Shown here piece after piece: positions 2 through 17,330 of a stretch of 24,915 bases of DNA. Within the stretch, counting starts at the first letter, position 1. Every line of letters starts with the position of its first letter. A model generated the notes under the pieces. The model was not told the DNA's origin. It did no database searches and saw only the letters and a program-made list of their open reading frames with translations. Origin of the DNA: a virus; IMG/VR virus record IMGVR_UViG_3300020171_000985, positions 1 to 24,915 of that record; one strand, given 5' to 3'. A program made the translations under genes and the position numbers.

Positions 2-1159
2 TGCAATGTAGCAATAACGATTGAGCAATCAAAGTTAATCTGGGAAGATGCTGCACGGTTAATGACCACGCAACCCGAGTTATCCTGGATGCTGCAAAAA
101 GCGCCGATAAGAAAACCGTTTCCAGCATTAGTCTGGTCCAATGGCGCCACGTTTACCTGCAGGTCAACTGATCAACCAGCTAACCTCTGGGGTTCATGGT
201 ACGATTTTGTTAGTTATGACGAAGCAGCTTGTGAAAAAAAACCAGAAGAAACTATTCCTCTAATAAAAACCAGACTTATGGACCATGACGGAATGCTTGA
301 TTTTATAAGCACTCCTGGCTACGTCAAAAACTGGTTCTTCAAAATCAAGCAGCATGCCCGCCTTAATCCAAAAGAATATTTTTTACTCACCGGATCCAAT
401 AAAGAAAACCTGAATATCTCAGATGAAGCACGGAATCGGTTTACCGAAAAAATGACGAAAGACCAAATCAGAGTACACGTCGAAGGCGAAGACATCGATG
501 CTGGCGGATATGTGTTTAGAGCCGATGACGTCGAAGCAGCAAGGCAGCCTTCGCTTGATTTGATAGAATGCACTCCGAATGAAAGGTACGTTCATCGTCC
601 ATACATCCCGGGACACAGATATGCTGATGGTTGGGATATCGCTACCAAAAAAGATTACTTAGTCGGCATAACGCTCGACATTACAGAGAAACCTTATAAA
701 CTAGTTATGTTCGAAAGATATCATAGGATACCATGGGACTATGTTTACCAAAGGATCCGCGAACGCCATAAGATGTACCACTCATTTAAAAAAATAGATG
801 TTACCGGTGTAGGCGACCACGTACCCGAAGAATTGATGGATTTAAAAGATTTCGTAGTTGGAATAAACTTCGCAAAACCGAAAGTAAAAACGAATATAAT
901 CATAGCAGGACAAAAGGCGCTGGAAGATAGAATCGTAATTTTTCCACATATACCTCCGTTGATTGAACAATTAACATTTTATGAATGGGATGATAAAAAT
1001 TTAGAAACCGATTGTGTCATCGCGTTCTGTTTAGCATTATATGATACAGAAGGCGCTGAGTATGAGTTTACCGGGAATGCAGGCGATATTATAATTGGAG
1101 AGAAAACTAGGGCAAAAGAAATATCAGAAGAATTAACCAGGAGAAGAATCTATGCCTGA
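2..1159 (+). CDS. terL: Terminase large subunit, 5'-truncated by the window edge
   Basis: ATP-driven DNA packaging motor with nuclease that cuts the concatemer. The frame is open without a stop from base 2, so the ATG at 62 is internal and the Walker A part lies outside the window. Counting from that ATG, a Walker B-like DEA triad is at residues 53-55 and a coupling motif (STP) at 83-85. The RNase H-like nuclease acidic residues are plausible at D192 (GWDIA), D247 (KIDVTG) and D317 (ETDCVIAFCLAL). The nuclease domain therefore looks intact. The gene overlaps the portal start by 8 bases, the usual terminase-portal coupling. Family assignment rests on motif order and context; the exact terminase subfamily is not resolved. 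Confidence 0.93.
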   Translation, partial: CNVAITIEQSKLIWEDAARLMTTQPELSWMLQKAPIRKPFPALVWSNGATFTCRSTDQPANLWGSWYDFVSYDEAACEKKPEETIPLIKTRLMDHDGMLDFISTPGYVKNWFFKIKQHARLNPKEYFLLTGSNKENLNISDEARNRFTEKMTKDQIRVHVEGEDIDAGGYVFRADDVEAARQPSLDLIECTPNERYVHRPYIPGHRYADGWDIATKKDYLVGITLDITEKPYKLVMFERYHRIPWDYVYQRIRERHKMYHSFKKIDVTGVGDHVPEELMDLKDFVVGINFAKPKVKTNIIIAGQKALEDRIVIFPHIPPLIEQLTFYEWDDKNLETDCVIAFCLALYDTEGAEYEFTGNAGDIIIGEKTRAKEISEELTRRRIYA

Positions 1160-2807
1160 AGAAAAGAGAGAACCAACAAAACCGTCACCAGAGATAATAG
1201 GCGAAGCCGGCGGAACGTTTATGCCTTCTATTACCGGCGGGCTTACATGGAACCCGGATACTATTTCAGTAAAGACGTATCTCGAAATGGAAGATGACGC
1301 TCAGATAAAAGCTGTCTACACTTTGATAAAAGCTCCATTGCAAAAAGTAGTATGGTCAATAGGATGCGAAGATCCTGACATCGCGAGATTTGTCAGAATA
1401 GTTATAGAACCTTTATGGTTAAGTCTACTTAACAATTTGAGCATGGCGCTGCAATTCGGACACCAGGCATTTGAAAAGGTATGGGAAGAAAAAAATGGAC
1501 AATGGCAATACTCTGGTTTTCTGGATTTATACCCGGATTCAGTGAAATACAAAAAAGGGATTCGAGGCGAGTTTGACGGATTAGAGCAGTATACCACAAA
1601 AGGAACAGTAACTATCCCAAAAGAGAAATCGTTTGTCTTTACTAATGAGAAACGATGGGGAAATCCTTATGGACGGTCGAAGTTTCGGTCGGCGTATATG
1701 TATTGGTTCATCGATAAATTTACTTATGATTTTGAAAATCAGTATTTCGAAAGATACGCAAACCCGTTAATCTGGGGACAAGCGCCTGCAGGGAAATCAC
1801 AAACAGGAACAACGGAAACTAGTCAGCAAAGCAATATCAGTATTTTATTTAACTTATTAAAAGAAGCTAAAAATGCGGGATTAATAGTAACCCCGTCAGA
1901 CGTAGACGCATTGACGCATCAAAAGAAATGGATCGTTCAATTCCTCGAGGCGCAACGCCGCGGCGCAGATTACCGCTCAAGACATGAATATTTAGATTTA
2001 ATGAAAGCCAGGGCAATCTTCGCGCCAGAACTTGTATTCTCAGCGCCGTATGCAGGATCATCCTACGCACTAGCCAGAGAGCATGCTACAATATTCATGA
2101 GCGCAGAAGAAGCTATACTTCAAGAAGTAAAGAATCATGTTCAAAAATATATCATTCCTCAATTAATAAAATACAATTTTGGAGCAAATGCACCACCAGC
2201 TACATGGGATTATGAATCCATAGCGCCTGAAACAAAAACGTTATTACGGGATCTCGTTATGGCAATGGTTGCAGGGGATATCATTCGACCAGACCCGGAT
2301 TGGATATCTAAAACGATTGGTATTAAGTTAAGAGAAGAGGCATCGAAAACTACGGAACGCCAGGTAAAACAGAAAGTACAGGAAACTATACTCAAAGGTT
2401 TACAACAACAAACTGGCGGAGCCGCGCCAGAAGAAATTCTTCCTGAAGGACAGCCAGAAGACCAGGCACAACAGTTAATCCAAGCAGTGCAACAAGCACG
2501 GCAAGCACAGGAGCAACAAGCCGTAGAAGAACCAGGTGAAGAAATATTTAAACCTTCTCGATCCGCAGCAGCTTATAAACGCTGGGCCACAACACCTACA
2601 CCGCAACGATTTCGTTCTGATAAATCTTATCAGAAAGCCTACAGCAAAGGATTATTCGAAGATATCCAAAACCATTACCTTTTTAGAACTCAAAGAAAAT
2701 TAATGCTTGATGAACGTTCAGGAGAAGTTATTGAAATAAAAAAGAGTAAAACCAGAAGACTTAGAAACACAATACTATCATTGATAGAAAGGTTCTTGCC
2801 GGAATGA
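1152..2807 (+). CDS. Portal protein, Mu gp29/DUF935-like
   Basis: Predicted dodecameric portal at the capsid vertex, the channel for DNA packaging and the seat of the terminase. It is 551 residues long. The N-terminal part (about 25-110) has the DUF935 pattern of a Trp-Asn start, a YLEMEDD segment and a GHQAFEKVWE stretch. A GNPYGRS motif at about 170-176 is followed by an aromatic helix (YMYWFIDKF) and FERYANPLIWG, all typical of Mu gp29-type portals. Residues of about 415-465 are rich in Gln, Glu and Ala, probably a flexible region, and the last 80 residues are basic. It overlaps terL upstream and overlaps the next gene by ATGA. Portal identity is well supported by order and motifs; the exact subfamily is an inference. 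Confidence 0.9.
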   Translation: MPEEKREPTKPSPEIIGEAGGTFMPSITGGLTWNPDTISVKTYLEMEDDAQIKAVYTLIKAPLQKVVWSIGCEDPDIARFVRIVIEPLWLSLLNNLSMALQFGHQAFEKVWEEKNGQWQYSGFLDLYPDSVKYKKGIRGEFDGLEQYTTKGTVTIPKEKSFVFTNEKRWGNPYGRSKFRSAYMYWFIDKFTYDFENQYFERYANPLIWGQAPAGKSQTGTTETSQQSNISILFNLLKEAKNAGLIVTPSDVDALTHQKKWIVQFLEAQRRGADYRSRHEYLDLMKARAIFAPELVFSAPYAGSSYALAREHATIFMSAEEAILQEVKNHVQKYIIPQLIKYNFGANAPPATWDYESIAPETKTLLRDLVMAMVAGDIIRPDPDWISKTIGIKLREEASKTTERQVKQKVQETILKGLQQQTGGAAPEEILPEGQPEDQAQQLIQAVQQARQAQEQQAVEEPGEEIFKPSRSAAAYKRWATTPTPQRFRSDKSYQKAYSKGLFEDIQNHYLFRTQRKLMLDERSGEVIEIKKSKTRRLRNTILSLIERFLPE

Positions 2808-4879
2808 GAATAGAATTTATTGAAGACAAAAAATCATATGATCCGTCAAAAGTAACTAATAAGGTATTAGTAGACGATCATCGGTTACTTCATATTGGCT
2901 GGCAACGTTTAGTTCATGGCGCACGTTGGGGCGATTGGAATAAAGAAGAAGTATGGAACCTGCATAACCGAGTCGTCTCAGAAATGAAGAAACGCAGCTT
3001 GAAACATAATATCGTCGATAAGAAACTAGATGCTATAAAATTACAGGAATTAGAAGTTGCGCAGCGTACCAAAGAAATATTAGCTGAACTAAAAACGTTT
3101 GTCGTCTCAGAAGGTTTTATATCTCTAGTAGGATCTTCAGCGGAAGGAAATCCAGAAGCTGCGGATATTGATTTCGTGATTAAACTAAAAAACAGGAATG
3201 AAGATCTCGAGAATAAATTGACAGAACAATCTCCTCTGCATAATATTCTACCCGACGTTCATTTCGTTTATGACCTGGATGGTTCACACGGAAAGAATAT
3301 CGCTATATACGATCTGGTAGCGGTGAAACGAGGCGACTTAGCTGTAAATAACCCTCAGTATTCGTTTCCTTTATTCGGCGCAGCGCCACAGCAAGCGAGA
3401 CTCGAAAGCGAACATGGATTGGAGATGTGTTATCTGCATAGAGACAAGAAACGTTGCGAACTCGTTGACGTAGACGGGAATCGTCTGATAAATTTTCCTC
3501 ATTTAGAATCTGAAGGTGCCGGTATGTCTAGACCAGATACTTATATCCTTTGCGGAAATTTAACTACTGACGGAAAGTTTGAGACGAAAGATATTTTTAG
3601 ATGGAACTCGACTGAACTTATATCATGCCCGGAGAAAGACAGGCAGTTCTTTCTTGATAAATTTGAATGGACTTCTAATATATTACGACAGACGCTCAAA
3701 GATGAAGGCTTAGAATTCGAAGAACACATAACATTAATGAAACCGTTCCTTCCGTTAAAAACAAAAGCTGGATATGGTACTTATGAATTTAACACAATCG
3801 ATGATTTAGTACGCTTTTGGGCTAATGGCGAATATATGAAATTGGGAATTGCGGTTCAGGAAAAATCAGATGGTATGAGATTTTTGATTCACCGACGGGG
3901 TAATGAAGTCAAAATGTTCACCGAAGACAAGAAACGCGACCGCGCGGATATGCTGCCAGACATCCGTGACGAAATAAGAAGACTTACGCCTAATGAATTA
4001 ATATTAGATACAGAAGTAGTTATGTATACTCCAGACGGAAAATTAATGCCACGCCACGAAAGCATGGCAATCATCGCCAGCAAGACACCGATAAGAGAAA
4101 AAGTAGTAGCGAAGATACACGACTGCTTATGGTTTAATGGACCAAAGAATGAAGCGCCGTATTCTGAAAGAGTGGAATTAATTAAAAAAGCCGTACCAGT
4201 AAACACTAAACATTTATACGTGATGCCAACATATATTGCGCATACCGAATCAGAATTACGAGCAGCAATCCGCAAGGCTGCTAAGACGCCTGGCAGCGAA
4301 GGAGCGATGCTGAAAGTTTTAAATTCCACTTATCCATTGAATGGCAAAACCCAATACTGGGCTAAATTAAAATTCGTAAAAGAAATAACTTTAAAAGTAA
4401 TTGGTATACGTCGTAAACGCGCAGCCGGCGGAGAAGAATCAAAAGGAACATTCTTATACAGAGGAGCATTCTTAAATAAAGAAGAAAAACTTGAAGCAAT
4501 GTATTCTCAGCATATAATAGGACCTATCGATATGAAAGAAGAAAATGAATGGCAAATGGGACAAGGGTTTAAAAATGCAGTCCCTGGAGAATATGGATAC
4601 GCAGAAACGTATGCTTCGAACGTTGCTGCGAAATTAGGAGATTTAATTACTATCTCTCCTATTCATATTTTAAAGTTTAAAGACAAGGATGGAAAAGAAC
4701 GTTACGCTACGATGTTTCCTCGTATGCGTAACTTAGAGACTGCTAAGACAAAACCGGATACCGTTGAACAATTGGAGAAGTTAGCCGCGCTCGGCGAAGG
4801 CTCAGAGAAAATGACGTTAGAAGAAATGTTAGATAAAATTAAACCAGAAGATTTTCCACTAACAATAAAGGAGGTCTAG
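2804..4879 (+). CDS. Nucleotidyltransferase-ATP-dependent DNA ligase fusion
   Basis: A 691-residue multi-domain enzyme. Residues of about 25-100 are helical. A Pol-beta-superfamily nucleotidyltransferase signature follows: GSS at 110-112 and DID at 121-123, with a possible third acidic residue near D157-D170. The C-terminal half has all the expected ATP-dependent ligase motifs. Motif I is EKSDGMR with the adenylated lysine at K354. Motif III is LDTEVV around E404, IIIa ends near D440, IV is EGAMLK at 499-504, and V is WAKLKF at 519-524. An OB-like domain ends in an FPRMRN motif near 638-643. Residues of about 201-290 resemble a second, degenerate ligase domain. ATGA overlap with the portal means co-translation. 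In Mu-like phages this slot normally holds a minor head protein, so the enzyme may be packaged in the virion; that is inference. Confidence 0.87.
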   Translation: MRIEFIEDKKSYDPSKVTNKVLVDDHRLLHIGWQRLVHGARWGDWNKEEVWNLHNRVVSEMKKRSLKHNIVDKKLDAIKLQELEVAQRTKEILAELKTFVVSEGFISLVGSSAEGNPEAADIDFVIKLKNRNEDLENKLTEQSPLHNILPDVHFVYDLDGSHGKNIAIYDLVAVKRGDLAVNNPQYSFPLFGAAPQQARLESEHGLEMCYLHRDKKRCELVDVDGNRLINFPHLESEGAGMSRPDTYILCGNLTTDGKFETKDIFRWNSTELISCPEKDRQFFLDKFEWTSNILRQTLKDEGLEFEEHITLMKPFLPLKTKAGYGTYEFNTIDDLVRFWANGEYMKLGIAVQEKSDGMRFLIHRRGNEVKMFTEDKKRDRADMLPDIRDEIRRLTPNELILDTEVVMYTPDGKLMPRHESMAIIASKTPIREKVVAKIHDCLWFNGPKNEAPYSERVELIKKAVPVNTKHLYVMPTYIAHTESELRAAIRKAAKTPGSEGAMLKVLNSTYPLNGKTQYWAKLKFVKEITLKVIGIRRKRAAGGEESKGTFLYRGAFLNKEEKLEAMYSQHIIGPIDMKEENEWQMGQGFKNAVPGEYGYAETYASNVAAKLGDLITISPIHILKFKDKDGKERYATMFPRMRNLETAKTKPDTVEQLEKLAALGEGSEKMTLEEMLDKIKPEDFPLTIKEV
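4868..4875 (+). promoter_or_regulatory. Strong ribosome binding site before the 4881 gene
   Basis: AAGGAGGT, a near-perfect Shine-Dalgarno sequence, lies inside the end of the ligase gene, five bases before the ATG at 4881. It implies high translation of the small downstream protein, as expected for a structural component. Confidence 0.7.
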
Positions 4880-4880
4880 G

Positions 4881-5204
4881 ATGCGAGGGAGTATTGATTA
4901 CCAGTTGACGAAAGTGCTTAGTTTTTTCTCTGACATCGAATTCAGACGAAAGAGATTAAGCGTAGCAGGAGGAACTAAATTGGATTCAGGCACCAGGTTT
5001 GGGTTTGGAACTCAGTTCAAATACTTTTCTGCATTTAATCTTGGAACCGAAGACGTCTATTTCAGGATGAACGCGGCAGGAACCGTTAATTCTTCTTGCG
5101 CGAAAATAATCGGAGGCGCATCGCTGCAAGAATCAGTGATGGGTTCAGTATTACATTTCTACGCACGAGGGACACCAGAGATCCAAGTTCACGTAAAACG
5201 TTAA
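4881..5204 (+). CDS. Small beta-rich protein, possible decoration or fibre component
   Basis: A 107-residue protein I cannot assign to a family. It starts one base after the ligase stop codon with a very strong ribosome binding site. The N-terminal 30 residues are charged (FRRKRL), and the remainder alternates short polar and hydrophobic stretches rich in Gly, Thr and Val, consistent with a beta-sandwich. Its C-terminal half (AAGTVNSS, then a block ending IQVHVKR) resembles in composition the 95-residue protein after the major capsid gene. Both could be small virion surface proteins. There is no signal peptide or membrane segment. Confidence 0.75.
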   Translation: MRGSIDYQLTKVLSFFSDIEFRRKRLSVAGGTKLDSGTRFGFGTQFKYFSAFNLGTEDVYFRMNAAGTVNSSCAKIIGGASLQESVMGSVLHFYARGTPEIQVHVKR

Positions 5205-5225
5205 AGAAGAAAGGAGTATAAAAAA

Positions 5226-6047
5226 ATGTATAGAAAGAACTACTTTTTAACAGGATTATTAATATTAGCCATAATTGTTTTCTCAAACCAAGAAGGCATA
5301 GCAGAAGGGTGGTCGCAGACAAAAGTATACTGGAGAAACTTAATAGGTCCAGTAATAATTAAACCCGCCACCGACTCTACTACCGCAGTGCAAATCCAGA
5401 ATTCTACAGGCACGGCAGTGGTGAATGTGGATACGACAAATAAGTATTTTGGAATTGGGACAACTGTTCCCGTAGCTAAACTACATCTACATGAAAATGC
5501 TGGTAGTGATATTTTTGCACAAATTACTAATACAGATACAGGACAGCTCTGGAATGATGGATTTCTAATATGGTTGAATGCAAACGAAGATTTAAAACTT
5601 TGGCATTATGAAGCTAAGGATATTATTTTTGGAATAACTAATACACAAAGAGTAATAATTAAGAGTGGAGGAGCAATAGGTATTGGTAGTAATACTAGTC
5701 CTGCATCAGTTTTTGTAGTTACTCCTCCAGCCGCATCAACCATTGTAGCAAACGATACAATTACAGCAAATGCTTGTGGAACGATAATGTTACTTACCGC
5801 AGACTTACCTGTTACCACTAACACTACGAATACCTTCACTACTCCAGCAGCAGCGAATGCTGGATGTTGTATGGATGTAGTGAATATAGGAACGAACGCT
5901 ACGAATACCATTACTCTTGACGCTAATACCAATTTTACCTCAGCGGGCGCTGCAGATGTGGTTCTTGGGATAGGAGATTCCTGTAGAGTCTGTTCCAATG
6001 GAGCAAGTGGAAAGTGGTTCCAAATTGGAGATACAGGAAATAATTAA
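5226..6047 (+). CDS. Tail-fibre-like protein with Sec signal peptide
   Basis: A 273-residue protein with a clear N-terminal signal: a basic start (MYRKN), a hydrophobic core at about 8-20, and a likely cleavage after GIA near residue 27. The mature part resembles phage fibre or adhesin shafts: VQIQNSTGTAVVNVDTT, then GIGTTVPVAKLHL, a motif common in phage fibre and secreted fibre proteins. The C-terminal 100 residues are Thr/Ala/Asn-rich with a GCCMDVVNIG motif and four Cys in total in that domain. A strong AAGGAG site lies 10 bases upstream of the ATG. A Sec signal is unusual for a tail protein made and assembled in the cytoplasm, so an exported accessory protein is an alternative. Confidence 0.8.
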   Translation: MYRKNYFLTGLLILAIIVFSNQEGIAEGWSQTKVYWRNLIGPVIIKPATDSTTAVQIQNSTGTAVVNVDTTNKYFGIGTTVPVAKLHLHENAGSDIFAQITNTDTGQLWNDGFLIWLNANEDLKLWHYEAKDIIFGITNTQRVIIKSGGAIGIGSNTSPASVFVVTPPAASTIVANDTITANACGTIMLLTADLPVTTNTTNTFTTPAAANAGCCMDVVNIGTNATNTITLDANTNFTSAGAADVVLGIGDSCRVCSNGASGKWFQIGDTGNN

Positions 6048-6054
6048 AGAGAAA

Positions 6055-6984
6055 ATGAGAAAAAAAAGTATAATCTTTTTTTTATTAATAGCAATCCTGT
6101 TACCTATAATTGCCTTTGGACAGGCAATACCGCTTTATGATAAATTGCAGAAGTTGCGTGACGTTACAATATCAAGCCCACAAGACAATGAAGTCTTAAC
6201 TTACGAAACGACATCGAGTAAATGGAAAAATGAAAACCTTACTGCATATGCATTACTTGCATCTCCGACTTTTACAGGAACTGTAACTATTCCTACGCCA
6301 TTTACTCTGGGAGCAGTATCAGTTTTACCAACAGGGACGGAATTAAATTTCGTAGATGGTGTTACTTCAGCGATACAGACACAATTAGATGCAAAACAAG
6401 CGACATTAACTAATTCAGCAGGACTTGCCGCTGCTTTAGCTGACGAAACAGGCACAGGATTAACGGTATTTTCTACTTCCCCAACTTTCACCACACAGAT
6501 AACCACTCCAATTATTGCTCTGACAGGTGGGCAAATTGCTTTTCCTGCCACTGCCGCCCCTTCTGCCGACGCCAATACCCTTGATGATTATGAGGAAGGG
6601 GATTGGACACCTGGGTTGAGTTTCGGTGGAGGAACAACGGGGATAACTTATCAAACTACATATACAAAAGGTCGTTACACAAAAATAGGAAATATAGTAA
6701 TTGTAAGTGCATTCTTACAACTCACATCAAAAGGCTCATCTACGGGGGATACACTACTTACAGGACTTCCATTCACAGTATTAAATGCTTTTGGTGGATA
6801 CGCCACGGTATCACTATGGTTTGATGGAATAACATTTGCGAACCAGTTTCAAGGACGGACTGCCCTAAATACAACAACGGCATACCTTGAGGAAACTACG
6901 GAAGCGGGAACAGCAACAGCACTAACAAATGCTAATTTTGCGGATACGAGCATTCTTGTAGTTAACTGTGCATATAGAATATAA
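6055..6984 (+). CDS. Tail-fibre-like protein with signal peptide and receptor-binding-type C-terminus
   Basis: The ATG at 6055 is preferred over an upstream in-frame ATG at 5998 because it places a signal peptide (MRKKS, then hydrophobic core FFLLIAILLPIIAFG) at the very start and removes a 50-base overlap. The protein is 309 residues. The shaft has tail-fibre segments: ALLASPTFTGTV, TELNFVDGVTSAIQTQLDAK and a second SPTFTT. The C-terminal domain begins DDYEEGDWTP and continues with GRYTKIGN, LTSKGSSTG and LLTGLPFT, a pattern I know from the tips of many phage tail fibres. It likely binds a cell-surface ligand. It follows the similar 5226 gene by 7 bases, and the two may act together. Confidence 0.83.
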   Translation: MRKKSIIFFLLIAILLPIIAFGQAIPLYDKLQKLRDVTISSPQDNEVLTYETTSSKWKNENLTAYALLASPTFTGTVTIPTPFTLGAVSVLPTGTELNFVDGVTSAIQTQLDAKQATLTNSAGLAAALADETGTGLTVFSTSPTFTTQITTPIIALTGGQIAFPATAAPSADANTLDDYEEGDWTPGLSFGGGTTGITYQTTYTKGRYTKIGNIVIVSAFLQLTSKGSSTGDTLLTGLPFTVLNAFGGYATVSLWFDGITFANQFQGRTALNTTTAYLEETTEAGTATALTNANFADTSILVVNCAYRI

Positions 6985-6993
6985 GGAGGATTT

Positions 6994-7080
6994 ATGTATT
7001 CAGAACAATCAGTAATAGACAAAATTGAAGTATTAGAGGACGGACAAATCCAAGTGCGTAGGGTAGATAGGGAGGAATAA
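6994..7080 (+). CDS. 28-residue mini-ORF repeating the motif of the next gene
   Basis: A short ORF, preceded by AAGGAGGA with a good spacing to its ATG. Its core VIDKIEVLEDGQIQVR matches VIDKIEILEDGQIQIR in the next gene at residues 50-65. It ends with TAA directly before the ATG at 7081 and supplies that gene's ribosome binding site (GGGAGG). Both ORFs share one frame, so stop readthrough would join them. It may be a real small peptide, a translational leader or the remnant of a truncated duplicate. Confidence 0.5.
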   Translation: MYSEQSVIDKIEVLEDGQIQVRRVDREE

Positions 7081-7491
7081 ATGGAAAAATTATTTAGATT
7101 AACAGTAATATCATTATCCTTAATTGCTTTTCTTATTGCGAGTTTGACAATAGGGTTAATTGGAGGTAGAGTGCGTTCTTGGATATTAAATGGTTATTGT
7201 GCCGAACCAGTATATACCGAAAAAGTGGTCATTGATAAAATAGAGATTTTGGAAGATGGGCAAATACAAATAAGAATGGCGACTAAAGTATTTAAGGATG
7301 GGGTAGAAGTCGCTAAAACTTATTGGAGAACCGTTCTTGCACCTGACCAAGATTTAAGTAAAATTGTAATCGCGCCTAATATAACCAAAGAAGATGCAGA
7401 TAAAGTAAAGGCAGTGGCTAATGTGGTGTGGACGGATACTGTAAAAAAGGCATACTTGGAAGCAAAGAAGAATAATGAAATAATTAAATGA
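7081..7491 (+). CDS. Membrane-anchored small phage protein
   Basis: A 136-residue protein with one hydrophobic segment at about 8-28 (signal anchor or uncleaved signal), then a basic turn (GGRVRSW) and a soluble domain. The domain contains VIDKIEILEDGQIQIR followed by ATKVFKDGVEVAKTYWR and LAPDQDLS. I recognise this pattern from small proteins next to tail-fibre genes in other phages, where it normally lacks the membrane segment; their function is unknown to me. It lies in a run of three genes with N-terminal hydrophobic segments (5226, 6055, 7081), which suggests a shared location at or outside the membrane. Confidence 0.75.
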   Translation: MEKLFRLTVISLSLIAFLIASLTIGLIGGRVRSWILNGYCAEPVYTEKVVIDKIEILEDGQIQIRMATKVFKDGVEVAKTYWRTVLAPDQDLSKIVIAPNITKEDADKVKAVANVVWTDTVKKAYLEAKKNNEIIK

Positions 7492-7504
7492 GAGATATAA
7501 AAAA

Positions 7505-9079
7505 ATGTTAAGAATAAAATCAGTTGATTTTGGAACAACTGGACTAACTGGCAGCGTAGGGTATAGATTAATCAATGCAACTGGATCTTTGACCTTAGCA
7601 CGAACAAACTCAGGTATTATTGCTTTTGGTTCCGGAGCATACCTTGCAGAATTTAATATCCCCGACAATTGGAGCGGAGTAGTGTTGTGGGATGATGGAA
7701 AAACACCAAGACTCTACGCACACGAATTAATTGAGAAAAGTCCAGGAACGTTCAGTTACGCAAATATAGCTTTAATACCAACCTTGGGAACACATCTACA
7801 ATCAAGGATTGATGGTAGTATCAAAAGAAATACTGGAGGAACATTCTCGTATTCACTAATTGCACAGATTGGTACACATTTATTAGGACGCATACCAGGA
7901 ACTATTAAAAAATCTATTGAGGGGACCTTCTCGTATGGCAATATTGCATTACTTCCAAGCCTTGGAACTCATTTGCAAGGTAGAATTCCTGGAAGTATGA
8001 AGAGAACAATCGAAGGGACTTTTAGTTATTCTTTAATAGCGCAAATAGGCACACATCTAAATGCTAGAATCTTTGGATCGGTACATCAAAAAGGAGCAGG
8101 AACATTTAGTTATGCTAACATAACTTTGATACCAGGATTAGGTACACATTTGCAATCTAGAATAACTGGATCCATAGCAGACGCGAGTGCGCTGGGGACT
8201 CATTTGAATAGCAGAATTACTGGAACAATGCCGTCACTTGCTGTTTTAGGAACACATCTGAACTCAAGAATACCAGGAACCGTAGCAACACGAGGCGATA
8301 TGGGAACGATTAAAGGCGCCACGTTCGACAAGACAACTGATTCGCTTGAAGCAATAAGAGATGCTTCAGCCGGAGGATCAACGCCATCATATATAGGAAG
8401 CGTCATTTGGGGAAAGATGAATCCTAACAGTTTCTCCGAATTGCCAAATACATTCGGTCAAAGAATACAAAAAATCCTTGACCGCGCATCAAGCGGGGTA
8501 GGCGGAGTCGCTGTAGCATCTCAGATTTTCAGCGAAAAAGAAAAGCAAACATTGTTCAACTGGATTAAAAGTATGATAGATAGAATATTAGCGATAGAAA
8601 TTATTGTCTCACAATTCAATCCAGAAACTAAAAAAGCAATATCACAAGTCGTAGTAGATATAAAAACAGGACAGACTAAATTACAAGAAATTCTACAAAA
8701 TTATCTAAAGACTGATGTAAAACAGAAAGAAGGAATTAAAGATAATCTGAACTTTATTGCTAACTCCTTTGAAGATATCGCGAACATGAATAAAAATGTA
8801 ACAGTTATAAAAACATCACTGATTCAATTAGCAGAAGAAATTCCAGTGTTAATTCACGAGATACCTTTAAAAAGTATTAGTTCAACAGTAACAACGAATT
8901 TCCAAGATCTTAGAAACCTTATTTCACAAAGTATTAATATTGCAAGTGATGTAAGCGAAAAACTAAAAAATAATCTGATTATTCTCGAAGAACAAAGAGA
9001 AAGCACAAAATTAACGGATAAAGTAATGCTGAGTCTTATACCAGCTGAAAAACTTAAGAAAATTATAGAGAACGAATAA
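7505..9079 (+). CDS. Fibre-like protein with GTHL repeats and helical C-terminus
   Basis: A 524-residue protein. Residues 1-78 form a small beta domain with WSGVVLWDDG, seen at the start of many phage fibre or appendage proteins. Residues 81-260 are repeats: five GTFSY blocks (81, 112, 140, 171, 199) and seven GTHL blocks (95, 123, 154, 182, 213, 231, 249), each followed by an R-I-x-G pattern. Residues of about 278-320 contain IWGKMNPNSF and NTFGQRIQKI. From about 340 the protein is mostly helical and charged, with likely coiled coil. This fits an elongated, probably trimeric, shaft or baseplate-attached fibre. There is no signal peptide, unlike its neighbours. It overlaps the phosphoesterase gene (TAATG). 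Confidence 0.8.
   Translation: MLRIKSVDFGTTGLTGSVGYRLINATGSLTLARTNSGIIAFGSGAYLAEFNIPDNWSGVVLWDDGKTPRLYAHELIEKSPGTFSYANIALIPTLGTHLQSRIDGSIKRNTGGTFSYSLIAQIGTHLLGRIPGTIKKSIEGTFSYGNIALLPSLGTHLQGRIPGSMKRTIEGTFSYSLIAQIGTHLNARIFGSVHQKGAGTFSYANITLIPGLGTHLQSRITGSIADASALGTHLNSRITGTMPSLAVLGTHLNSRIPGTVATRGDMGTIKGATFDKTTDSLEAIRDASAGGSTPSYIGSVIWGKMNPNSFSELPNTFGQRIQKILDRASSGVGGVAVASQIFSEKEKQTLFNWIKSMIDRILAIEIIVSQFNPETKKAISQVVVDIKTGQTKLQEILQNYLKTDVKQKEGIKDNLNFIANSFEDIANMNKNVTVIKTSLIQLAEEIPVLIHEIPLKSISSTVTTNFQDLRNLISQSINIASDVSEKLKNNLIILEEQRESTKLTDKVMLSLIPAEKLKKIIENE
7745..8284 (+). repeat. In-frame protein repeats with a 177-base supercycle
   Basis: Long (about 31 residues) and short (28 residues) repeat units alternate. 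The GTFSY starts are at 7745, 7838, 7922, 8015 and 8099, giving a 59-residue (177-base) period between like units. Two shorter GTHL units of 18 residues follow. The units are similar at protein level and more diverged at base level, so they are old or selected for protein structure. Confidence 0.75.
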
Positions 9080-10551
9080 TGAATAAAAACGATCTCATAG
9101 AAGAATTTAAATCAAAAATTTCAGAAAAGATAGAATTTATCTCTGCAACAGCGCAAGACCTTAATACAGCAACTGATTCAATAAATAAACTTAAAAGAGA
9201 AATTGCGTTAGTAGATCAAATTTTAGATGAAAAAACAATTCATTCAACGAAAGAATTAGCAGACTTTCTTGGATCGTCCCTCGGAAAAAATGTGTCGCTG
9301 AAAACAAAAGATGAGACAATAATGGAGTTTATGATTGACGCAAACCAGGTAAACGTACCAACTGCGTTAGATAATTTTTCTAAGAAATTCAGACCTGAAC
9401 ATGAATCCGAACCTGCTATCCTTAATCAGTGGGGATTATACTTATCTCCTCCACACGGAGAACTTATATGGTCAGGAAAAAAGAATGTGATTGTAAAATC
9501 GATACGCTTATCAAATCATATCGATGAACCAGTATACCTTCTTTCAGGAAAGTATTGTTACGGAATAATTAAGATGGGAAAATCTAGACAGATTAATCTT
9601 CGAGAATTTAAGGAACTCTCGAGCAAACATCAAATTACGGACGAAGAAAGAAGAAGGTTTTGGCCCGGGAAAGAAATCCTTTATTTATATCCGATCAATA
9701 TAATAAGACGTTGGCAGCCGCCTCGTGAATGGAAAGTGCAAAAGGGAGCGCAGATATTCGTTAAAGACGTAAAGTTCGAAGAGACATCGAACTCTGCGCG
9801 GTTTATCTTTCTTGCCAGCGAAGAAGGCGGGAATGAAGGAGATACCCATGAGGAAGAAATAGAAAAACAAATGAATGCGTATGGCGACTGGTATCGCGTA
9901 AAAGCTAATTCTCGTAAAACGTATAGATATGTAGCTCAACATCATATTCGTGGAAATTCTATACACACAGATTTAAGAATGGAAATGAACGATCACTTAG
10001 TAGGCTGGACTTTAGACACACCTGGATCTCTTGCAAATATTAAACACGATAAGTTCTTAGAACCAGTGACAGCGTCGCAAGGCATAGATTACCAGAACCT
10101 TGCGGAACGAAAGCTGGTACAACCTAAAGTCTGGCTTACTGTAAAAGGTAAAGTTCCTGCCGGAGGTATTGGCGCCACGGCGCATAAAGAAGCTGAGTTC
10201 CAGATTGTTTCCAGCGGCACGGTTAGATTCGGTACGCAGAAACATGATTTCCACGAATACTTCCTCTATCCAGAGAAGAAATGGAACCAAGAATCTACGG
10301 TTAAAGGACGATGGATAGCAGCATATATCCCGCGTCCAGCGCATTATACGAGAGCTGGTGAAGGAAAAATGATGTATGCTTTTTGGAAACCTAACGATCA
10401 ACGGCCATATGTCGAATACCAGGATTATGAAGAATCGTTAAAGAAAGCGGAAAAGGAAAAAGGGTATGTCATCTGGCAGGATCCCAATAAAGGCGAATTA
10501 AAAAAAGCAGGAGATTTCAGAGAGAATAAAAAATCTTCCTGGGTATACTAA
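9079..10551 (+). CDS. LigD-like 3'-phosphoesterase domain protein
   Basis: A 490-residue protein. Residues 1-60 are helical and probably coiled coil. Residues of about 115-215 (GELIWSGKKNVIVKS, KYCYGIIKMG, HQITDEERRRFW) resemble an ASCH/PUA-like nucleic-acid binding domain; that call is tentative. Residues of about 284-425 match the LigD phosphoesterase family. QHH at 287-289 and HTDLRME at 296-302 correspond to the metal-binding and catalytic His, Asp and Arg of that family, with one extra residue between the two His positions. Later family-like features are KVPAGGIGAT and KGRWIAAYIP. The family removes 3'-phosphates and terminal ribonucleotides before ligation. With the ligase at 2804, it reconstitutes most LigD activities on two proteins. 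It overlaps the fibre gene by one base, and no Ku homologue is present in the window. Confidence 0.82.
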   Translation: MNKNDLIEEFKSKISEKIEFISATAQDLNTATDSINKLKREIALVDQILDEKTIHSTKELADFLGSSLGKNVSLKTKDETIMEFMIDANQVNVPTALDNFSKKFRPEHESEPAILNQWGLYLSPPHGELIWSGKKNVIVKSIRLSNHIDEPVYLLSGKYCYGIIKMGKSRQINLREFKELSSKHQITDEERRRFWPGKEILYLYPINIIRRWQPPREWKVQKGAQIFVKDVKFEETSNSARFIFLASEEGGNEGDTHEEEIEKQMNAYGDWYRVKANSRKTYRYVAQHHIRGNSIHTDLRMEMNDHLVGWTLDTPGSLANIKHDKFLEPVTASQGIDYQNLAERKLVQPKVWLTVKGKVPAGGIGATAHKEAEFQIVSSGTVRFGTQKHDFHEYFLYPEKKWNQESTVKGRWIAAYIPRPAHYTRAGEGKMMYAFWKPNDQRPYVEYQDYEESLKKAEKEKGYVIWQDPNKGELKKAGDFRENKKSSWVY

Positions 10552-10999: not shown

Positions 11000-11269
11000 A
11001 TGACAGAGAAAATTTACTCTTTCAAATGCGGCGAATGCGGTAAGCAGTTAGCGAAATTCTCAGACCGCGAAGCGTTCATAAAATCTGGGATACAAATAAT
11101 GTGCCGCAATCATGAAAGAGACGAGAAGAAAGTAAATTTTGCTGTTCAAAGAATTGTTTTTGGTTCTGCAAATTATGCATTAGGAAAAATCGTGGAATTT
11201 GTAAGGAGACCGTATGTCAGAGAAAAAGTTCAGGATAACAACTCGGCTGCCCAATACGTTAGAGTTTGA
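11000..11269 (+). CDS. Small Cys-rich, zinc-finger-like protein
   Basis: An 89-residue protein from the ATG at 11000; an in-frame TTG at 10961 would add 13 residues, but MTEKIYSFKCGECGK is a natural start for a zinc-ribbon protein. C10/C13 form a CxxC knuckle, and C35/H38 (CRNH) could complete the site. The second half is a hydrophobic then basic helix. No strong ribosome binding site is seen. Its 3' end overlaps the protease gene by 56 bases out of frame, so the last residues also carry that gene's ribosome binding site. The function is unknown. Confidence 0.65.
   Translation: MTEKIYSFKCGECGKQLAKFSDREAFIKSGIQIMCRNHERDEKKVNFAVQRIVFGSANYALGKIVEFVRRPYVREKVQDNNSAAQYVRV
11203..11208 (+). promoter_or_regulatory. 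Ribosome binding site of the protease gene
   Basis: An AAGGAG sequence lies about 5 bases before the ATG at 11214, inside the coding end of the upstream small gene. It supports 11214 as the protease start although this creates a 56-base overlap. Confidence 0.55.
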
Positions 11270-12590
11270 CGGAGAAGGAATAGCAGACGTAGAATTGTTT
11301 AGAGAAGGAGAATGGAAACATCCTGCTGCACCTGACGGATGGTTTAAAGTAACAAAAGAAAGAATAAAGACATTTATAAATAACTTCAACCGGGGTATAT
11401 GCGGGTATGAACTTCCGCTGGAATTTAACCACGCGCAGGATTCGGAAAAAACGCCCGGTTGGGTTGTAGGTATGTATGAAACAGTCAAAGACGGGATATC
11501 CCACCTGTACGGAAAATTAAAGTTAACAGATCCAGTAACCCGAGACCGTATAAAAAACGGGTCTCTTAAGTTTATCAGTCCGACTGTGGTATCTGATTAT
11601 GTAGACACGGCTTCAGGCCAGATGTTTGAAGTAATCAGATCCGCAACGCTCACAAATTACCCGCACATAAAAGGGTTAGAGCCTATCGCAGTAAACTTCG
11701 AAGAAATACAAAATGAGGAGGAATCGATGCAAAAAACAGAAAAAGAAATCCTCGAGAACAATGAGTTGCAGTTGGAAGACTTAGACACTATTACCTTGGA
11801 CCAGTTAAAAAAAGGCGATATTGTGTTAGAGTATCTTACCAAAGAGCAAATCGTTGAACTCGCAGAGAAGTTCGAAATGACAGTTGAACAGTTCCAAGAA
11901 CAGTATCCAGTGGCAGGAACCAAGATGTATGGGAATAGACCAAAACTGAAACTTCCAGCCAACGTTCCCCCAGAGCAGAAAAAAGCGTTTCTCGACGCCT
12001 TCAATGCAGCGTACGATAAATACCAGGATGTAGATAAAGCTATGAAAGTAGCGTTAAGAAGTATCGGAGTCCAGATGGAAGCGGAAACCCCAACAGGAGT
12101 CAAGGAGTTCGTAGAGATGCTCGGTAATTACATCAAGAAAGTAACGGGGAGAGCGCCGATTAAAATATCGGAGGAAGATGTGGATGCGACGAAATTCGAA
12201 GAATTGCAAAAAGAAGTCAAGGCTCTAAAGGCGTATAGAGAAAGAGTGGAACTTCAAGAAGACGCGTCATTAGTAGAAAGTTTCAAACTGCTCACTCCGG
12301 CCGCGAAGAAAATTGTGCAGGCATTGCTCGTAGCAGGACGAAACACATCCTTGAAGTTTGAAGAGACAACGATCTCTTTGCATGATATGCTTATCAGCCT
12401 GTTCGAGGAACTTAAGAATAATCCTACGATGAATATGTTCGCAGAATTGTCGCATAAAGAAACTCTCGACTTATCGGAAGATTTATCAGTAGCTATAGAT
12501 AAATACAGAAAAGACCATCCGGAAGTAGAATACAGAGCAGCGTACGATATTTGTTTCCAGGAATTCAAGAGAGCTGGAAAAGTAAAGTAA
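11214..12590 (+). CDS. Mu I-like prohead protease with C-terminal scaffold region
   Basis: A 458-residue protein. Residues of about 25-160 match the Mu protein I protease family: GEWKHPAAPDGWFKV, then PLEFNHAQDS with the likely catalytic His73, PGWVVGMYE, and LKFISPTVV with Ser122, followed by RSATLTNYPHIKG. It cleaves scaffold and head proteins during maturation. Residues of about 240-285 (LPANVPPEQKKAFLDAFN) resemble a ChaB-like helical domain. The C-terminal two thirds is acidic, helical and scaffold-like, ending in a conserved-looking helical segment. The gene precedes the decoration and major capsid genes, the expected place. A strong internal start at 11727 likely makes a separate scaffold. 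Confidence 0.87.
   Translation: MSEKKFRITTRLPNTLEFDGEGIADVELFREGEWKHPAAPDGWFKVTKERIKTFINNFNRGICGYELPLEFNHAQDSEKTPGWVVGMYETVKDGISHLYGKLKLTDPVTRDRIKNGSLKFISPTVVSDYVDTASGQMFEVIRSATLTNYPHIKGLEPIAVNFEEIQNEEESMQKTEKEILENNELQLEDLDTITLDQLKKGDIVLEYLTKEQIVELAEKFEMTVEQFQEQYPVAGTKMYGNRPKLKLPANVPPEQKKAFLDAFNAAYDKYQDVDKAMKVALRSIGVQMEAETPTGVKEFVEMLGNYIKKVTGRAPIKISEEDVDATKFEELQKEVKALKAYRERVELQEDASLVESFKLLTPAAKKIVQALLVAGRNTSLKFEETTISLHDMLISLFEELKNNPTMNMFAELSHKETLDLSEDLSVAIDKYRKDHPEVEYRAAYDICFQEFKRAGKVK
11715..11721 (+). promoter_or_regulatory. Internal Shine-Dalgarno for a nested scaffold
   Basis: GAGGAGG lies inside the protease gene, five bases before an in-frame ATG at 11727. It is one of the strongest ribosome binding sites in the window and falls exactly at the junction between the protease domain and the helical region. 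Confidence 0.65.
11727..12590 (+). CDS. Nested scaffold protein, in-frame start inside the protease gene
   Basis: Initiation at the ATG at 11727 gives a 287-residue product equal to the C-terminal part of the protease polyprotein without its catalytic domain. It is acidic and helical (KTEKEILENNELQLEDL), includes the ChaB-like segment and likely coiled coil, and would act as capsid scaffold. Known precedents are Mu Z within I and lambda Nu3 within C. That it is made here is inferred from the ribosome binding site and domain boundary. Confidence 0.6.
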   Translation: MQKTEKEILENNELQLEDLDTITLDQLKKGDIVLEYLTKEQIVELAEKFEMTVEQFQEQYPVAGTKMYGNRPKLKLPANVPPEQKKAFLDAFNAAYDKYQDVDKAMKVALRSIGVQMEAETPTGVKEFVEMLGNYIKKVTGRAPIKISEEDVDATKFEELQKEVKALKAYRERVELQEDASLVESFKLLTPAAKKIVQALLVAGRNTSLKFEETTISLHDMLISLFEELKNNPTMNMFAELSHKETLDLSEDLSVAIDKYRKDHPEVEYRAAYDICFQEFKRAGKVK

Positions 12591-13076: not shown

Positions 13077-14003
13077 ATGATTGATGCAGTCCAAGTTCAT
13101 ATAGACGCAGCGCTAAGCAATTTATCGAAAGCGTTTAAGAATAATACTTTCATCGCGGAACTTGTAGCCAAAGTTGTACCAGTAGGTAAAGAAAGCGGAA
13201 TCTTTTTTACCTATGGCCGCGATGCGTTCAAAGTTCCAAATGCATATCGCGTAGATGGAACTAAATCCAATGAAGTACATTTAAAAGTAGGACAAGATAC
13301 TTATACTTGTCTCCCTTATGCTCTTAGTGATATCCTGACAGACAATGTAAGAAAGCAATGTGATCCTGCTATTAACCCCGAAGCTGATACCACAGAGTTT
13401 ATTACTGATTTAATGCTTCTACAGTTAGAAGACCTGGTTGCGACAGAAATGACGACCGTTGCAAGATACGCTAACAGCAACTATTCTACGTTATCAGGAA
13501 CTTCTCAGTGGAACGATTATTCAAACTCTAACCCGTTAACAAACATTAAAACAGGAAAAGCCAAGATACGCAGCCTTATCGGCCGCGAAGCGAATTCAAT
13601 AATCCTGCCTGGCGATGTCGCAGAAACGCTTAGTTTGCATCCTGACATCAAGGATTTAAGGAAGTACACGGATCCAAACCTTCTAACACAAGCAGGGTTA
13701 CCACCGAAAATTCTGGGCTTGACTGTCGTAGAGGCAAAGGCTACAAAGAACGCAGCATGGGAAGGCGTAACGGAAGTAATGGGATATGTGTGGGGAAAAC
13801 ATGCGATTATTCTCTATATCCCAGATAGAGTTGGTATTAAATCATTAGCGCCTTGGATAATCTTCCGCGAAACAGGGTACAGAAACACGAGGAAATGGAG
13901 AGAAGAAGCACGTAAAGGCGATATGGTTGAAGTTGAAGATAAATATGTTGTTAAAGAAATCGCCGATGAATGCGCGTATATGTTAGTTAACGTTATTGCA
14001 TAA
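13077..14003 (+). CDS. Major capsid protein, HK97-fold type
   Basis: A 308-residue protein after scaffold and decoration genes, with a strong AAGGAGAGG site. The order and layout fit an HK97-fold capsid protein. There is an N-terminal helix, a stretch with YGRDAFKVPNAYR that may be the E-loop region, and a helical spine with TEFITDLMLLQLEDL. A P-domain-like part includes NSIILPGDVAETL and LPPKILGLTVVEAKA. The C-terminus (VGIKSLAPWIIFRETG, then VVKEIADECAYMLVNVIA) matches the end of many Mu- and lambda-type coat proteins. There is no separate delta domain because the scaffold is a separate gene. It is a possible substrate for the downstream glycan cassette. Confidence 0.87.
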   Translation: MIDAVQVHIDAALSNLSKAFKNNTFIAELVAKVVPVGKESGIFFTYGRDAFKVPNAYRVDGTKSNEVHLKVGQDTYTCLPYALSDILTDNVRKQCDPAINPEADTTEFITDLMLLQLEDLVATEMTTVARYANSNYSTLSGTSQWNDYSNSNPLTNIKTGKAKIRSLIGREANSIILPGDVAETLSLHPDIKDLRKYTDPNLLTQAGLPPKILGLTVVEAKATKNAAWEGVTEVMGYVWGKHAIILYIPDRVGIKSLAPWIIFRETGYRNTRKWREEARKGDMVEVEDKYVVKEIADECAYMLVNVIA

Positions 14004-14326: not shown

Positions 14327-15538
14327 GTGAGAATACTTTTCTTCGCTAAAGATGCCCCGTTCGTAAACTCAGGTTACGGCAAATGTTGCCGTGAAATCTG
14401 TACAAGACTAAGCCGACTGGGCCACGACGTCGCGGTTTTCGCGACAGTAGGGAACCGGTCGGCTTACTTTTTTGAGTGGCAGGGATTAAAAATATATCCT
14501 GGTTTCGAAGATCTCTTCGGTGAAGATATCATATATGATCATTACCTGGATTGGAAAGCGGATATCTTAATTACGCAATTAGATATCTGGCCGATGAAAA
14601 AGATACACGAATTATGCCGTACCGGATTAATCAACTGGTTGCCTTATGCGCCGATAGATTCGATGCCTCCCTGTCTTGACATTACTGAACGTCTGCGATA
14701 TGCAACTCACGTAATTACAATGTGCAACTGGGGAAAAGAGCTGCTCGAAAAACAAGGAATCGAAGCTACATGTATACATCATGGAATTGATACCAAAATT
14801 TTCAGAATCATTAATGAAACAAAAGAGAAACTAAAACAGGAACTCGGGTTCTCAAAAGAATGTTTCTTAGTAGGAATGGTGCAAGCTAACCAGTTCACTC
14901 GTAAAGCAATCGAAGAACAGCTGAGAGGAGTAGCAATATTTAAAGAAAGACATCCGCAGATAGATATTAAGGTATACTTCCACACTCAAGCTAACCGCGC
15001 AGACTCATTCCATTTACCGTCATTAGTACAAATTGTAGGATTAAAAGACCATGTAAAATTTCCAAATGAATACCTGACAATAAAAGGATTTACTGAAGAA
15101 CATATGTCAAGGATATACAATGCCTTCGACGTCCTATTATCAGCAACGAACGGCGAAGGGTTTGGGTTGCCAGTAATTGAAGCTCAGGGCTGCGGTATTC
15201 CCGTAGTAGCAACTGACTGTATGTCTTTTCCTGAGCTTGTCCTGGTAGGAGGGTTGTGTAAAGTAAAAACCTGGTTTACTACGCCGTCATTACAAATAAA
15301 GGCTATACCGGATGAACAGGATATTGCAGAGAAACTATGGACAATATATAATTTAGAATATAATAAACGAGAATTACAAGACATGGCTCATTATCTCTGG
15401 AGCTGGGATTCGAAGATTATCCAGGAATGGATGCGGATCCTGGATCAGATAAGATTAAAAATAGAAAAACGGTGCCTCGCAGTACCTCAGGTGTCTAAGA
15501 AAACAAAAGAAATGGAGAAGAACATTTGCGTATATTAA
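14327..15538 (+). CDS. GT4-type glycosyltransferase, first gene of glycan cassette
   Basis: A 403-residue retaining GT4-like enzyme transferring a sugar from an activated donor. The GTG at 14327 gives the typical N-terminus MRILFFAKDAPF with NSGYGKCCREI. The C-terminal donor-binding domain has NGEGFGLPVIEAQGCGIPVV at about 275-294; the two Glu of the EGFGLPVIE motif bind the donor and act in catalysis. HHGID at 151-155 joins the two domains. The protein matches family length. A stable hairpin followed by six T lies within codons 28-49. The ribosome binding site is weak (GAGG close to GTG). It overlaps the next gene by 13 bases. The acceptor is unknown. Confidence 0.85.
   Translation: MRILFFAKDAPFVNSGYGKCCREICTRLSRLGHDVAVFATVGNRSAYFFEWQGLKIYPGFEDLFGEDIIYDHYLDWKADILITQLDIWPMKKIHELCRTGLINWLPYAPIDSMPPCLDITERLRYATHVITMCNWGKELLEKQGIEATCIHHGIDTKIFRIINETKEKLKQELGFSKECFLVGMVQANQFTRKAIEEQLRGVAIFKERHPQIDIKVYFHTQANRADSFHLPSLVQIVGLKDHVKFPNEYLTIKGFTEEHMSRIYNAFDVLLSATNGEGFGLPVIEAQGCGIPVVATDCMSFPELVLVGGLCKVKTWFTTPSLQIKAIPDEQDIAEKLWTIYNLEYNKRELQDMAHYLWSWDSKIIQEWMRILDQIRLKIEKRCLAVPQVSKKTKEMEKNICVY
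14409..14473 (+). terminator. Terminator-like hairpin inside the first glycosyltransferase gene
   Basis: A 12-bp stem (14409-14420 with 14455-14466, one G-U pair) encloses a second 6-bp stem (14429-14434 with 14440-14445) with a 5-base loop. A C and six T (14467-14473) follow at once. This is the layout of an intrinsic terminator, although the large internal loop is unusual. It is within coding sequence, so it might act as an attenuator for the cassette. Confidence 0.45.
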
Positions 15539-16464: not shown

Positions 16465-17330
16465 GGATAGCATTTTTACAAGACTACGACGTCTTTTCGT
16501 ACCCTGGTGGCGCAGAAATGAATGATGCTGCGCATTTCAGAGAAGGGCTTAAACGCGGGCATGATTTGTTTTTAGTCAACCCGCAGACGCCATACTCACA
16601 GCCGGAGGCGTTGATAGTATCAAATTGTGTATCATTTGATAAGAAACGTTTGTCGGATATGGTAAACTCAGCACCAACTGTATTTTTCTTTCACGACTAC
16701 ATTTTCTGCAAGTATAGATTATTCTATCCGATGCTCGAGCATTGCGGGACGTGTGAAAGTTCAAAATGGTGGCTTGAACTATTTATGAAAGCAAAATTAT
16801 TAATATGGCTATCTCCGCTGCACAGAAACGCAGCGCTCGTAGCATTACCGGAATTAGCGGAAAAGAAATACGTGTTGATACCGTCTGCGATAAACCCTGA
16901 AAAGTTTTTAGGGAAAGACGTCAACCCGCGCCAAGAAGCGTATCTATCCGTAAACTCGTTATTCCCATTCAAAGGAAGAGACAACTTAATTACTTACGCA
17001 ACATTGCATCCTGATATATTATTCCATGTAGTCAGCCCTGAACCTGAACCTGAATTACCCGGGAATATGCTCGTACTTCCTCCGCAGACGTATGACCAGA
17101 TGCATAAAGTTTATCGCATGTATAAATATTATATAGAACTCCCGTCGACTCCGCAGCCATTTAACAGAACCGTTACGGAAGCGAAATTGTCCGGTTGCAA
17201 AGTAATCACTAATCAACTGATGGGCGCGGCCAGCTGGCCGTGGTTCAAAGAAAGCCCAGAAGTCATAGCGGACGAGTTGCGTAAAGCTACTACGCAATTC
17301 TGGGATGCTGTGGAGGAGGCGTTAAAATGA
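16461..17330 (+). CDS. Glycosyltransferase, GT4-like, short
   Basis: 289 residues from the ATG at 16461, which overlaps the SDR stop by ATGA; an upstream ATG at 16389 would overlap by 76 bases and give a non-family N-terminus. The start MRIAFLQDYDVFSYPGGAE is a GT4-type acceptor-domain opening (GGAE loop). The donor domain has VNSLFPFKGRDNL and, near the end, PFNRTVTEAKLSGCKVITN, equivalent to the ExxxE-containing motif. The usual EGFGLP is replaced by a weaker version. A HCGTC motif in the first domain is unusual. It is in one operon with its neighbours; donor and acceptor are unknown. Confidence 0.8.
   Translation: MRIAFLQDYDVFSYPGGAEMNDAAHFREGLKRGHDLFLVNPQTPYSQPEALIVSNCVSFDKKRLSDMVNSAPTVFFFHDYIFCKYRLFYPMLEHCGTCESSKWWLELFMKAKLLIWLSPLHRNAALVALPELAEKKYVLIPSAINPEKFLGKDVNPRQEAYLSVNSLFPFKGRDNLITYATLHPDILFHVVSPEPEPELPGNMLVLPPQTYDQMHKVYRMYKYYIELPSTPQPFNRTVTEAKLSGCKVITNQLMGAASWPWFKESPEVIADELRKATTQFWDAVEEALK

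Follow-up and report, generated by a model that had tools for sequence, protein, structure and literature searches.

Ligase and phosphoesterase domains between the portal and capsid genes of tailed viruses: a possible virion-borne DNA end-repair module

Why a tailed virus would keep DNA end-joining enzymes among the genes for its head is the question raised by the IMG/VR virus record IMGVR_UViG_3300020171_000985, a linear, incomplete record of 24,915 bases whose whole length is referred to here as the window. Two open reading frames (ORFs) are concerned, one encoding a nucleotidyltransferase (NTase) joined to an ATP-dependent ligase, and the other an ASCH domain joined to a 3'-phosphoesterase (PE) of the type found in LigD. 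A first-pass annotation of the DNA had described them as a split LigD-like kit; its coordinates and reading frames for both (2804-4879 and 9079-10551) are correct, and it was right about the likeness of the ligase and PE domains to LigD. The domains are identified below, as are the conserved catalytic residues of the ligase and metal-binding residues of the PE, and the module occupies a conserved slot between portal or minor-head genes and protease or capsid genes in diverse tailed viruses. The two ORFs are proposed, at what we consider about even chances, to represent in split form a DNA end-processing module that is widespread and linked to the head, with ASCH, helical hairpin, NTase, ATP ligase and LigD-type PE as its parts, and that would be made with the head and delivered with the genome.

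Domains of the two ORFs

The identity of the ligase is secure, with a match to phrog_114 (4.2e-23) beside those to Pfam and to a DNA ligase structure listed in Table 1, and its catalytic residues K354 (in KSDGMR), E499 and K521 are invariant in an alignment of relatives (63/63). These profile matches and the intact active site confirm the ATP-dependent ligase domain that had been assigned to this ORF. The NTase matches PF01909 at 0.0066 when the whole ORF is searched, and lies just above the curated cut-off when the segment is searched alone (Table 1). It carries the signature G-S...D-x-D (G110, S111, D121, D123) together with D170, and G110, D121 and D123 are kept in 49-50 of 50 relatives. 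A Foldseek search with a model of this domain gave non-significant matches leaning to MNT-type NTases, and in comparison with the Pol-beta family polymerase PolX, a template-directed enzyme with fingers and thumb, just the minimal G-S...D-x-D core is seen. The domain had been described as a Pol-beta-type NTase and referred to as the polymerase; a Pol-beta-type NTase fused to the ligase is indeed present, but the label "polymerase" is unproven, as this is a minimal, MNT-like enzyme of the Pol-beta fold.

A helical hairpin (H..V..EM..R...H), overlooked at first reading, is present in 34 of 73 module contigs, mostly immediately before the NTase. Of the 49 ORFs in the loci that match the hidden Markov model (HMM) of this hairpin, 48 are module ORFs, although such ORFs hold only 12% of the residues; the hairpin might be a targeting or DNA-binding element. 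In one relative (L003:283-4293) an intein-like insert of ~340 amino acids, starting CYDEKTEVLTRKGW, interrupts the NTase domain of the NTase-ligase ORF, with HNH-like ORFs nearby.

From the single sequence, the PE stays below threshold (PF13298 0.037, TIGR02777 0.022). The profile of a 40-member PE family, on the other hand, matches the PDB structures 3p43 (9.4e-6) and 3p4h (2.7e-4), and 19 of the 40 PE relatives individually match LigD_N (best 2.4e-7). With a model of the window's PE domain (pLDDT 77.8, pTM 0.76), the top seven Foldseek matches in PDB are all LigD-PE structures (7.7e-7 to 7.9e-5, probability 1.00), whereas the eighth-ranked match has an E-value of only 0.04. The family profile, the LigD_N matches of the relatives and the structure model together confirm the LigD-type 3'-phosphoesterase recognised at first reading, in a divergent form. 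A match of the whole ORF to haem oxygenase (PDB, 0.015) was judged to be due to chance and rejected.

The PE residues of Pseudomonas aeruginosa LigD (PaLigD) comprise the metal triad His42, His48 and Asp50, with Arg52, His84 and Tyr88, the last two of which are essential in that enzyme (PMC8656161). In the alignment, H289, H296, D298 and R300 of the window correspond to H42, H48, D50 and R52, and Q287 to Q40, with a one-residue insertion in the motif. The same ORF contains an ASCH domain that had been overlooked, and its family profile matches the TTHA0113 structures over the full length (PDB 1wk2, 6.8e-6; 2dp9, ~7e-6).

Recurrence and position among head genes

The window ligase ORF as a lone query found no relative among viral contigs, and alignment-based queries were required; PE queries against ~50,700 phage records gave the archaeal virus ANMV-1 as the sole match or none. 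Alignment queries in IMG/VR gave 42 PE, 28 NTase-ligase and 15 ASCH loci, or 71 contigs after repeats were removed by name and by eye. The module is thus carried by ~70 IMG/VR contigs, by ANMV-1 and by three genome bins, two of these bins being identical with contigs L014 and L016. The profiles were refined on these same loci, which makes their E-values in-sample, but the first-round profiles of four sequences already gave the main picture.

Among 35 contigs found by PE alone, the ligase is present in 29, the NTase in 28 and ASCH in 9, and the 15 contigs found by ASCH alone include 14 with the ligase, 13 with PE and 14 with the NTase. All 27 contigs from the NTase-ligase query have a PE match, but in 13 (the L060-L073 group) this is weak; these marine-type contigs show partial PE matches of 1e-4 to 1e-10 and were left out of the clear members. 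The contigs lacking the ligase include L006 as well as truncated ones such as L039. Distance matrices of ligase and PE correlate across 52 contigs (r=0.76, Mantel p<0.0005), a figure that includes the effect of shared ancestry. One ORF holds both ligase and PE in 44 contigs, against 19 in which they occupy separate ORFs, and in many relatives the fused module is one polypeptide of 850-1970 amino acids. The description of the kit as split is therefore true of the window but not of the family as a whole, ANMV-1 also having the fused form.

The position of the module is one-sided. In iterated profile searches, a portal gene lies upstream in 28/28 contigs with a detected portal (25 within ~1.2 kb, 26 within 2 kb) and downstream in none, and a capsid gene lies downstream in 13/13 contigs with a detected capsid and upstream in none. 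Co-occurrence of ligase and PE beside the portal had been set in advance as a test of the first-pass annotation, which these counts bear out. A tally of PHROG families agrees, the upstream neighbours being mainly portal, minor head, head morphogenesis and maturation protease families, and the downstream neighbours mainly major head and maturation protease families.

The ligase ORF is directly coupled to the portal gene, as had been seen, and was said to fill the slot of the Mu gp30-type minor head protein. The position holds, but the ORF was rejected as a MuF protein, since the MuF domain (PF04233) has no match in the window, and real MuF proteins adjoin the module elsewhere, between portal and module in L025 and L041. 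A portal-MuF fusion immediately precedes the PE in L023. The module belongs to the head region across unrelated head types, and "gp30 slot" is therefore a positional term only.

Large versions of the module carry further domains, including a metallo-beta-lactamase fold (L002, L076, L078, L080), a D12 adenine DNA methyltransferase (L078, 6e-14; L080, 8e-9) and a pyrimidine-dimer glycosylase (Pyr_excise) match in L008 (23.8 against a cut-off of 23). In L076 a single ORF combines the metallo-beta-lactamase fold with two PE domains and a head-protease-like C-terminus (phrog_4523 1.6e-8, PF04586 0.0019). These predicted additions point more to DNA than to RNA.

Proposed role and rival explanations

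LigD non-homologous end joining was rejected as an explanation, because nearly all records are without Ku and without the LigD primase-polymerase. Ku is missing from the window, as the first-pass annotation had noted, and from 25 of 26 related records, an absence that is provisional as the records are fragments. The primase-polymerase (AEP, PF21686) is likewise not found in the window, and across 27 records, fragments again, none passes the cut-off and one gives a sub-threshold match. In the record of L047, a Ku gene adjoins a stand-alone ATP ligase of 283 amino acids (L093, G012:C1:22000-29000), outside the head module that is also present; this record possibly holds a phage-borne Ku-ligase pair.

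Polyvalent proteins are multidomain, virion-injected proteins encoded near portal and MuF genes (PMC5512222; PMC9503650). The module resembles these and other MuF- or portal-linked effectors, which are large multidomain proteins of the portal-terminase head region that are predicted to be injected. At least two disparate domains share each polypeptide (NTase-ligase and ASCH-PE, with up to 1972 amino acids in relatives), and the portal-terminase head context is that described above. The recurrence nearly always between portal and capsid genes suggests production with the head and makes entry into the cell with the viral DNA possible, and it is from the published injected proteins (PMC5512222; PMC9503650) that we infer synthesis with the head, packaging and delivery. 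That the enzymes travel in the virion had been suggested at first reading, and the gene context makes it plausible. The module is probably a "polyvalent" cargo for DNA end or nick repair, made with the head and entering the cell with the genome.

Under this proposal, late synthesis of the module proteins would accompany that of the head; they would become part of it or be packaged inside it, and would reach the cell along with the genome. There, 3' ends blocked by a 3'-phosphate or a 3'-ribonucleoside would be restored to 3'-OH by the PE, and nicks or ends would be sealed by the ligase. The NTase would have an accessory part, perhaps the addition of a nucleotide or the adenylylation of a partner, and ASCH would bind nucleic acid that is possibly modified. 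The net effect would be that the incoming genome is repaired or circularised, or that cuts made by host nucleases are repaired, before viral gene expression. It is more tentatively suggested that a Ku-independent end-joining complex resides in the heads of many uncultured tailed viruses of bacteria and archaea and is injected with the DNA, healing and sealing genome ends or cuts made by the host ahead of all viral gene expression. Such a complex would be the counterpart of LigD in the virion, with ASCH as its reader and an NTase of a different kind.

Several observations weigh against such a delivered repair cargo. The link to the virion, through position among head genes, is indirect. The positions of PaLigD His84 and Tyr88 are taken in the window PE by Gln348 and Trp352 in the most natural alignment of the sequences, so its chemistry may differ from that of LigD-PE. 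Of the NTase carboxylates, the third is conserved in just 26 of 50 relatives. In the window itself, 4.2 kb separates the two ORFs, and in L006, which is the closest relative by TerL (the large terminase subunit), portal and capsid, the slot is occupied by ASCH-PE while the 9.3 kb of the contig show no ligase. Finally, 18 of 23 ligase-bearing records contain no ATP ligase besides that of the module, and NAD+ ligase was not found in 26 records, provisionally given their fragmentary state, so the module ligase could serve in ordinary replication or repair there.

This last point also favours the main rival, which is late-expressed repair in the producing cell and which we regard as a possibility of some weight, though doubtful. 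The enzymes would act on concatemeric DNA just before or during packaging, sealing its nicks and repairing its 3' ends and maybe binding portal or terminase, and virion entry would be unneeded. Gene position and timing would be the same as for a delivered cargo, and general phage biology makes it plausible that nicks need sealing when DNA is packaged. Ordinary phage ligases, however, usually lie with replication genes and not in the portal-capsid slot, and the head-protease-like fusion and large multidomain form suit delivery better. A second ATP ligase is, moreover, encoded elsewhere in five of the 23 ligase-bearing records, and the module ligase is therefore not the sole ligase in those.

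A delivered cargo could also serve counter-defence in the main, with viral DNA attacked by restriction or CRISPR being repaired or marked, ASCH and methyltransferase reading or making base modifications, and general end joining not the chief purpose. The D12 methyltransferase and metallo-beta-lactamase fold of some copies are consistent with this, as is the proposal that polyvalent proteins counter restriction (PMC5512222). Neither of these domains is present in the window's ORFs, however, and ASCH ligands here are putative, which makes this explanation improbable.

RNA-end repair, in which NTase, ligase and PE would restore RNAs (tRNAs) that host anticodon nucleases have cut, and seal them, was one of the alternatives listed at first reading. 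It draws on the RlaP-type Pol-beta NTases of jumbo phages, which partner RNA ligases (PMC7824862), on the action of LigD-PE on 3' ribonucleotides (PMC8656161) and on the frequent binding of RNA by ASCH/PUA domains (PMC7641849). The window ligase, however, matches DNA ligase families (PF01068, phrog_114) and PDB DNA ligases and no RNA ligase family, and 43 NTase segments gave no match to RlaP at E<=0.1 among the families listed. As the relatives also add DNA-specific domains, RNA repair is the less likely reading and was rejected as quite unlikely. That the head module is simply a permissive insertion site with unrelated passengers, as the lack of a ligase in L006 and ~8 further non-structural, glycosyltransferase-like ORFs between capsid and connector genes (14.3-22.9 kb) might suggest, is disfavoured as very improbable by the invariant ligase active site and by the recurrence of the four domains together, fused or separate, in a one-sided slot in diverse viruses.

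Neighbouring genes, known systems and significance

The features of the window are collected in Table 1. The gene order on the + strand is TerL (cut), Mu-type portal, NTase-ligase, repeat-rich ORFs, ASCH-PE, Mu-I-type protease, major capsid protein, a glycosyltransferase-like cluster and, at the end of the window, a Mu gp36-like head-tail adaptor.

Table 1. Positions of features in the window, and of modules with added domains in related contigs.
Feature	Position	Strand	Evidence or remark
Large terminase subunit (TerL), 5' end cut by record	2..1159	+	PF03237 0.0017, phrog_5909 0.0014; homologous to L006 TerL 2e-52
Portal protein, Mu type	1152..2807	+	PF06074 3.9e-41, phrog_113 1e-51
NTase - ATP-dependent ligase ORF, 691 aa	2804..4879	+	ATG overlaps portal stop (ATGA)
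Conserved helical hairpin, ~aa 25-80 of ligase ORF	2876-3043; core motif HNRVVSEMKKRSLKH 2963..3007	+	hairpin HMM
Minimal Pol-beta-type nucleotidyltransferase domain (G110-S111, D121, D123, D170)	3068..3319	+	PF01909 21.4 bits against cut-off 21
ATP-dependent DNA ligase adenylation domain and subsequent OB-like region; catalytic K354	3734..4753	+	PF01068 1.2e-21; PDB 3gde 1.8e-11
ASCH - LigD-type phosphoesterase ORF, 490 aa	9079..10551	+	ATG overlaps upstream stop (TAATG)
ASCH domain	9424..9780	+	46-48% identity to L002/L003 domains; family profile against PDB 1wk2/2dp9
LigD-type 3'-phosphoesterase domain (Q287 H289 H296 D298 R300)	9898..10497	+	family profile, LigD_N matches in relatives, structure model
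Head maturation protease, Mu-I type	11214..12590	+	PF10123 2.5e-12, phrog_328 9.6e-10
Major capsid protein	13077..14003	+	phrog_1005 3.3e-62
Modules with added domains	L008:1807-7663, L076:3429-5966, L078:9674-15265, L080:7502-12748		pyrimidine-dimer glycosylase, metallo-beta-lactamase, adenine methyltransferase or head-protease-like

The setting had been described as one of portal, fibre and capsid genes, of which portal and capsid hold, as does a protease, but the fibre label for 4881-9079 is weakly backed, as the ORFs there are repeat-rich, possibly fibre-like, and match phrogs of unknown function. Two of them, within 5226-6984, start with an apparent signal peptide or membrane segment (MYRKNYFLTGLLILAIIVFS... 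and KKSIIFFLLIAILLPIIAFG...), which is unusual for virion proteins. The ORF at 7505-9079, directly coupled to the PE ORF, has tandem repeats of ~32 amino acids (GTHLQ/NSRI.GS/T...) followed by a coiled-coil tail; its Pfam match to S1CSD-TOTE is below cut-off and was judged to be chance. Promoter and terminator scans gave no signal above shuffled level. The interval 14327-22871, which separates the capsid gene from those for the head-tail adaptor, holds ~8 consecutive ORFs resembling glycosyltransferases, a sugar epimerase and methyltransferases, perhaps for virion glycosylation, and L002 also has a glycosyltransferase-like ORF, upstream of its module.

Among described viruses, ANMV-1 (KP703175; PMC4372165) carries NTase, ligase and PE together in a single ORF (AJP62006) that immediately follows the portal, but as a fused protein of 866 amino acids in which no ASCH was found, and with a putatively archaeal host. 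The protein has been public since 2015, annotated only as "ATP-dependent DNA ligase", and the main text of PMC4372165 is silent on it. Its neighbour AJP62005 (L004:1913-3193), annotated as "MutT-like phage hydrolase", is the portal (PF06381 3.2e-22, phrog_146 2e-30). Bacterial LigD likewise combines an ATP ligase with a PE domain whose metal triad and Arg are kept in the window, but the window is without AEP primase-polymerase or Ku, its NTase is of another fold, the phosphate-site residues of its PE are replaced and its location is a head module. Stand-alone archaeal LigD-PE proteins (PDB 3p43, 3p4h, 5dmp) are the best structural and profile matches of the window PE, yet these are cellular, single-domain proteins, and their His84/Tyr88 equivalents differ in the window. 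The mycobacteriophages Omega and Corndog, as cited in PMC7719229, also apply end joining to their own genome, but bring Ku and borrow the host ligase, whereas the viruses here bring ligase and PE without Ku.

The main text of PMC5512222 contains neither LigD nor ASCH, and that of PMC9503650 no ASCH; in the parts of this literature consulted, ligase, PE and NTase are not among the combinations noted. PMC5512222 also reports a paucity of polyvalent proteins in archaea, whilst the module family here includes archaeal viruses. No description of the end-repair combination of ligase, PE and NTase was found in the open-access literature, subscription papers and preprints being outside the scope of the search. 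The cargo theme is known already, and the DNA end-repair form of head-encoded polyvalent proteins is apparently new to that literature.

It is understood for only a few systems (cos ends, Ku phages, protelomerases) how phages protect incoming linear DNA and circularise it ahead of expression. The module family is defined well enough, by profiles, slot and catalytic residues, to be sought in virion proteomes, and annotations limited to "DNA ligase" or "hypothetical protein" are corrected by it. If the proposal is true, bacterial and archaeal viruses alike would deliver a repair kit in the form of a conserved set of ligase and 3'-end-healing enzymes, and the polyvalent-protein theme would extend from effectors that modify the host to repair of the virus's own genome.

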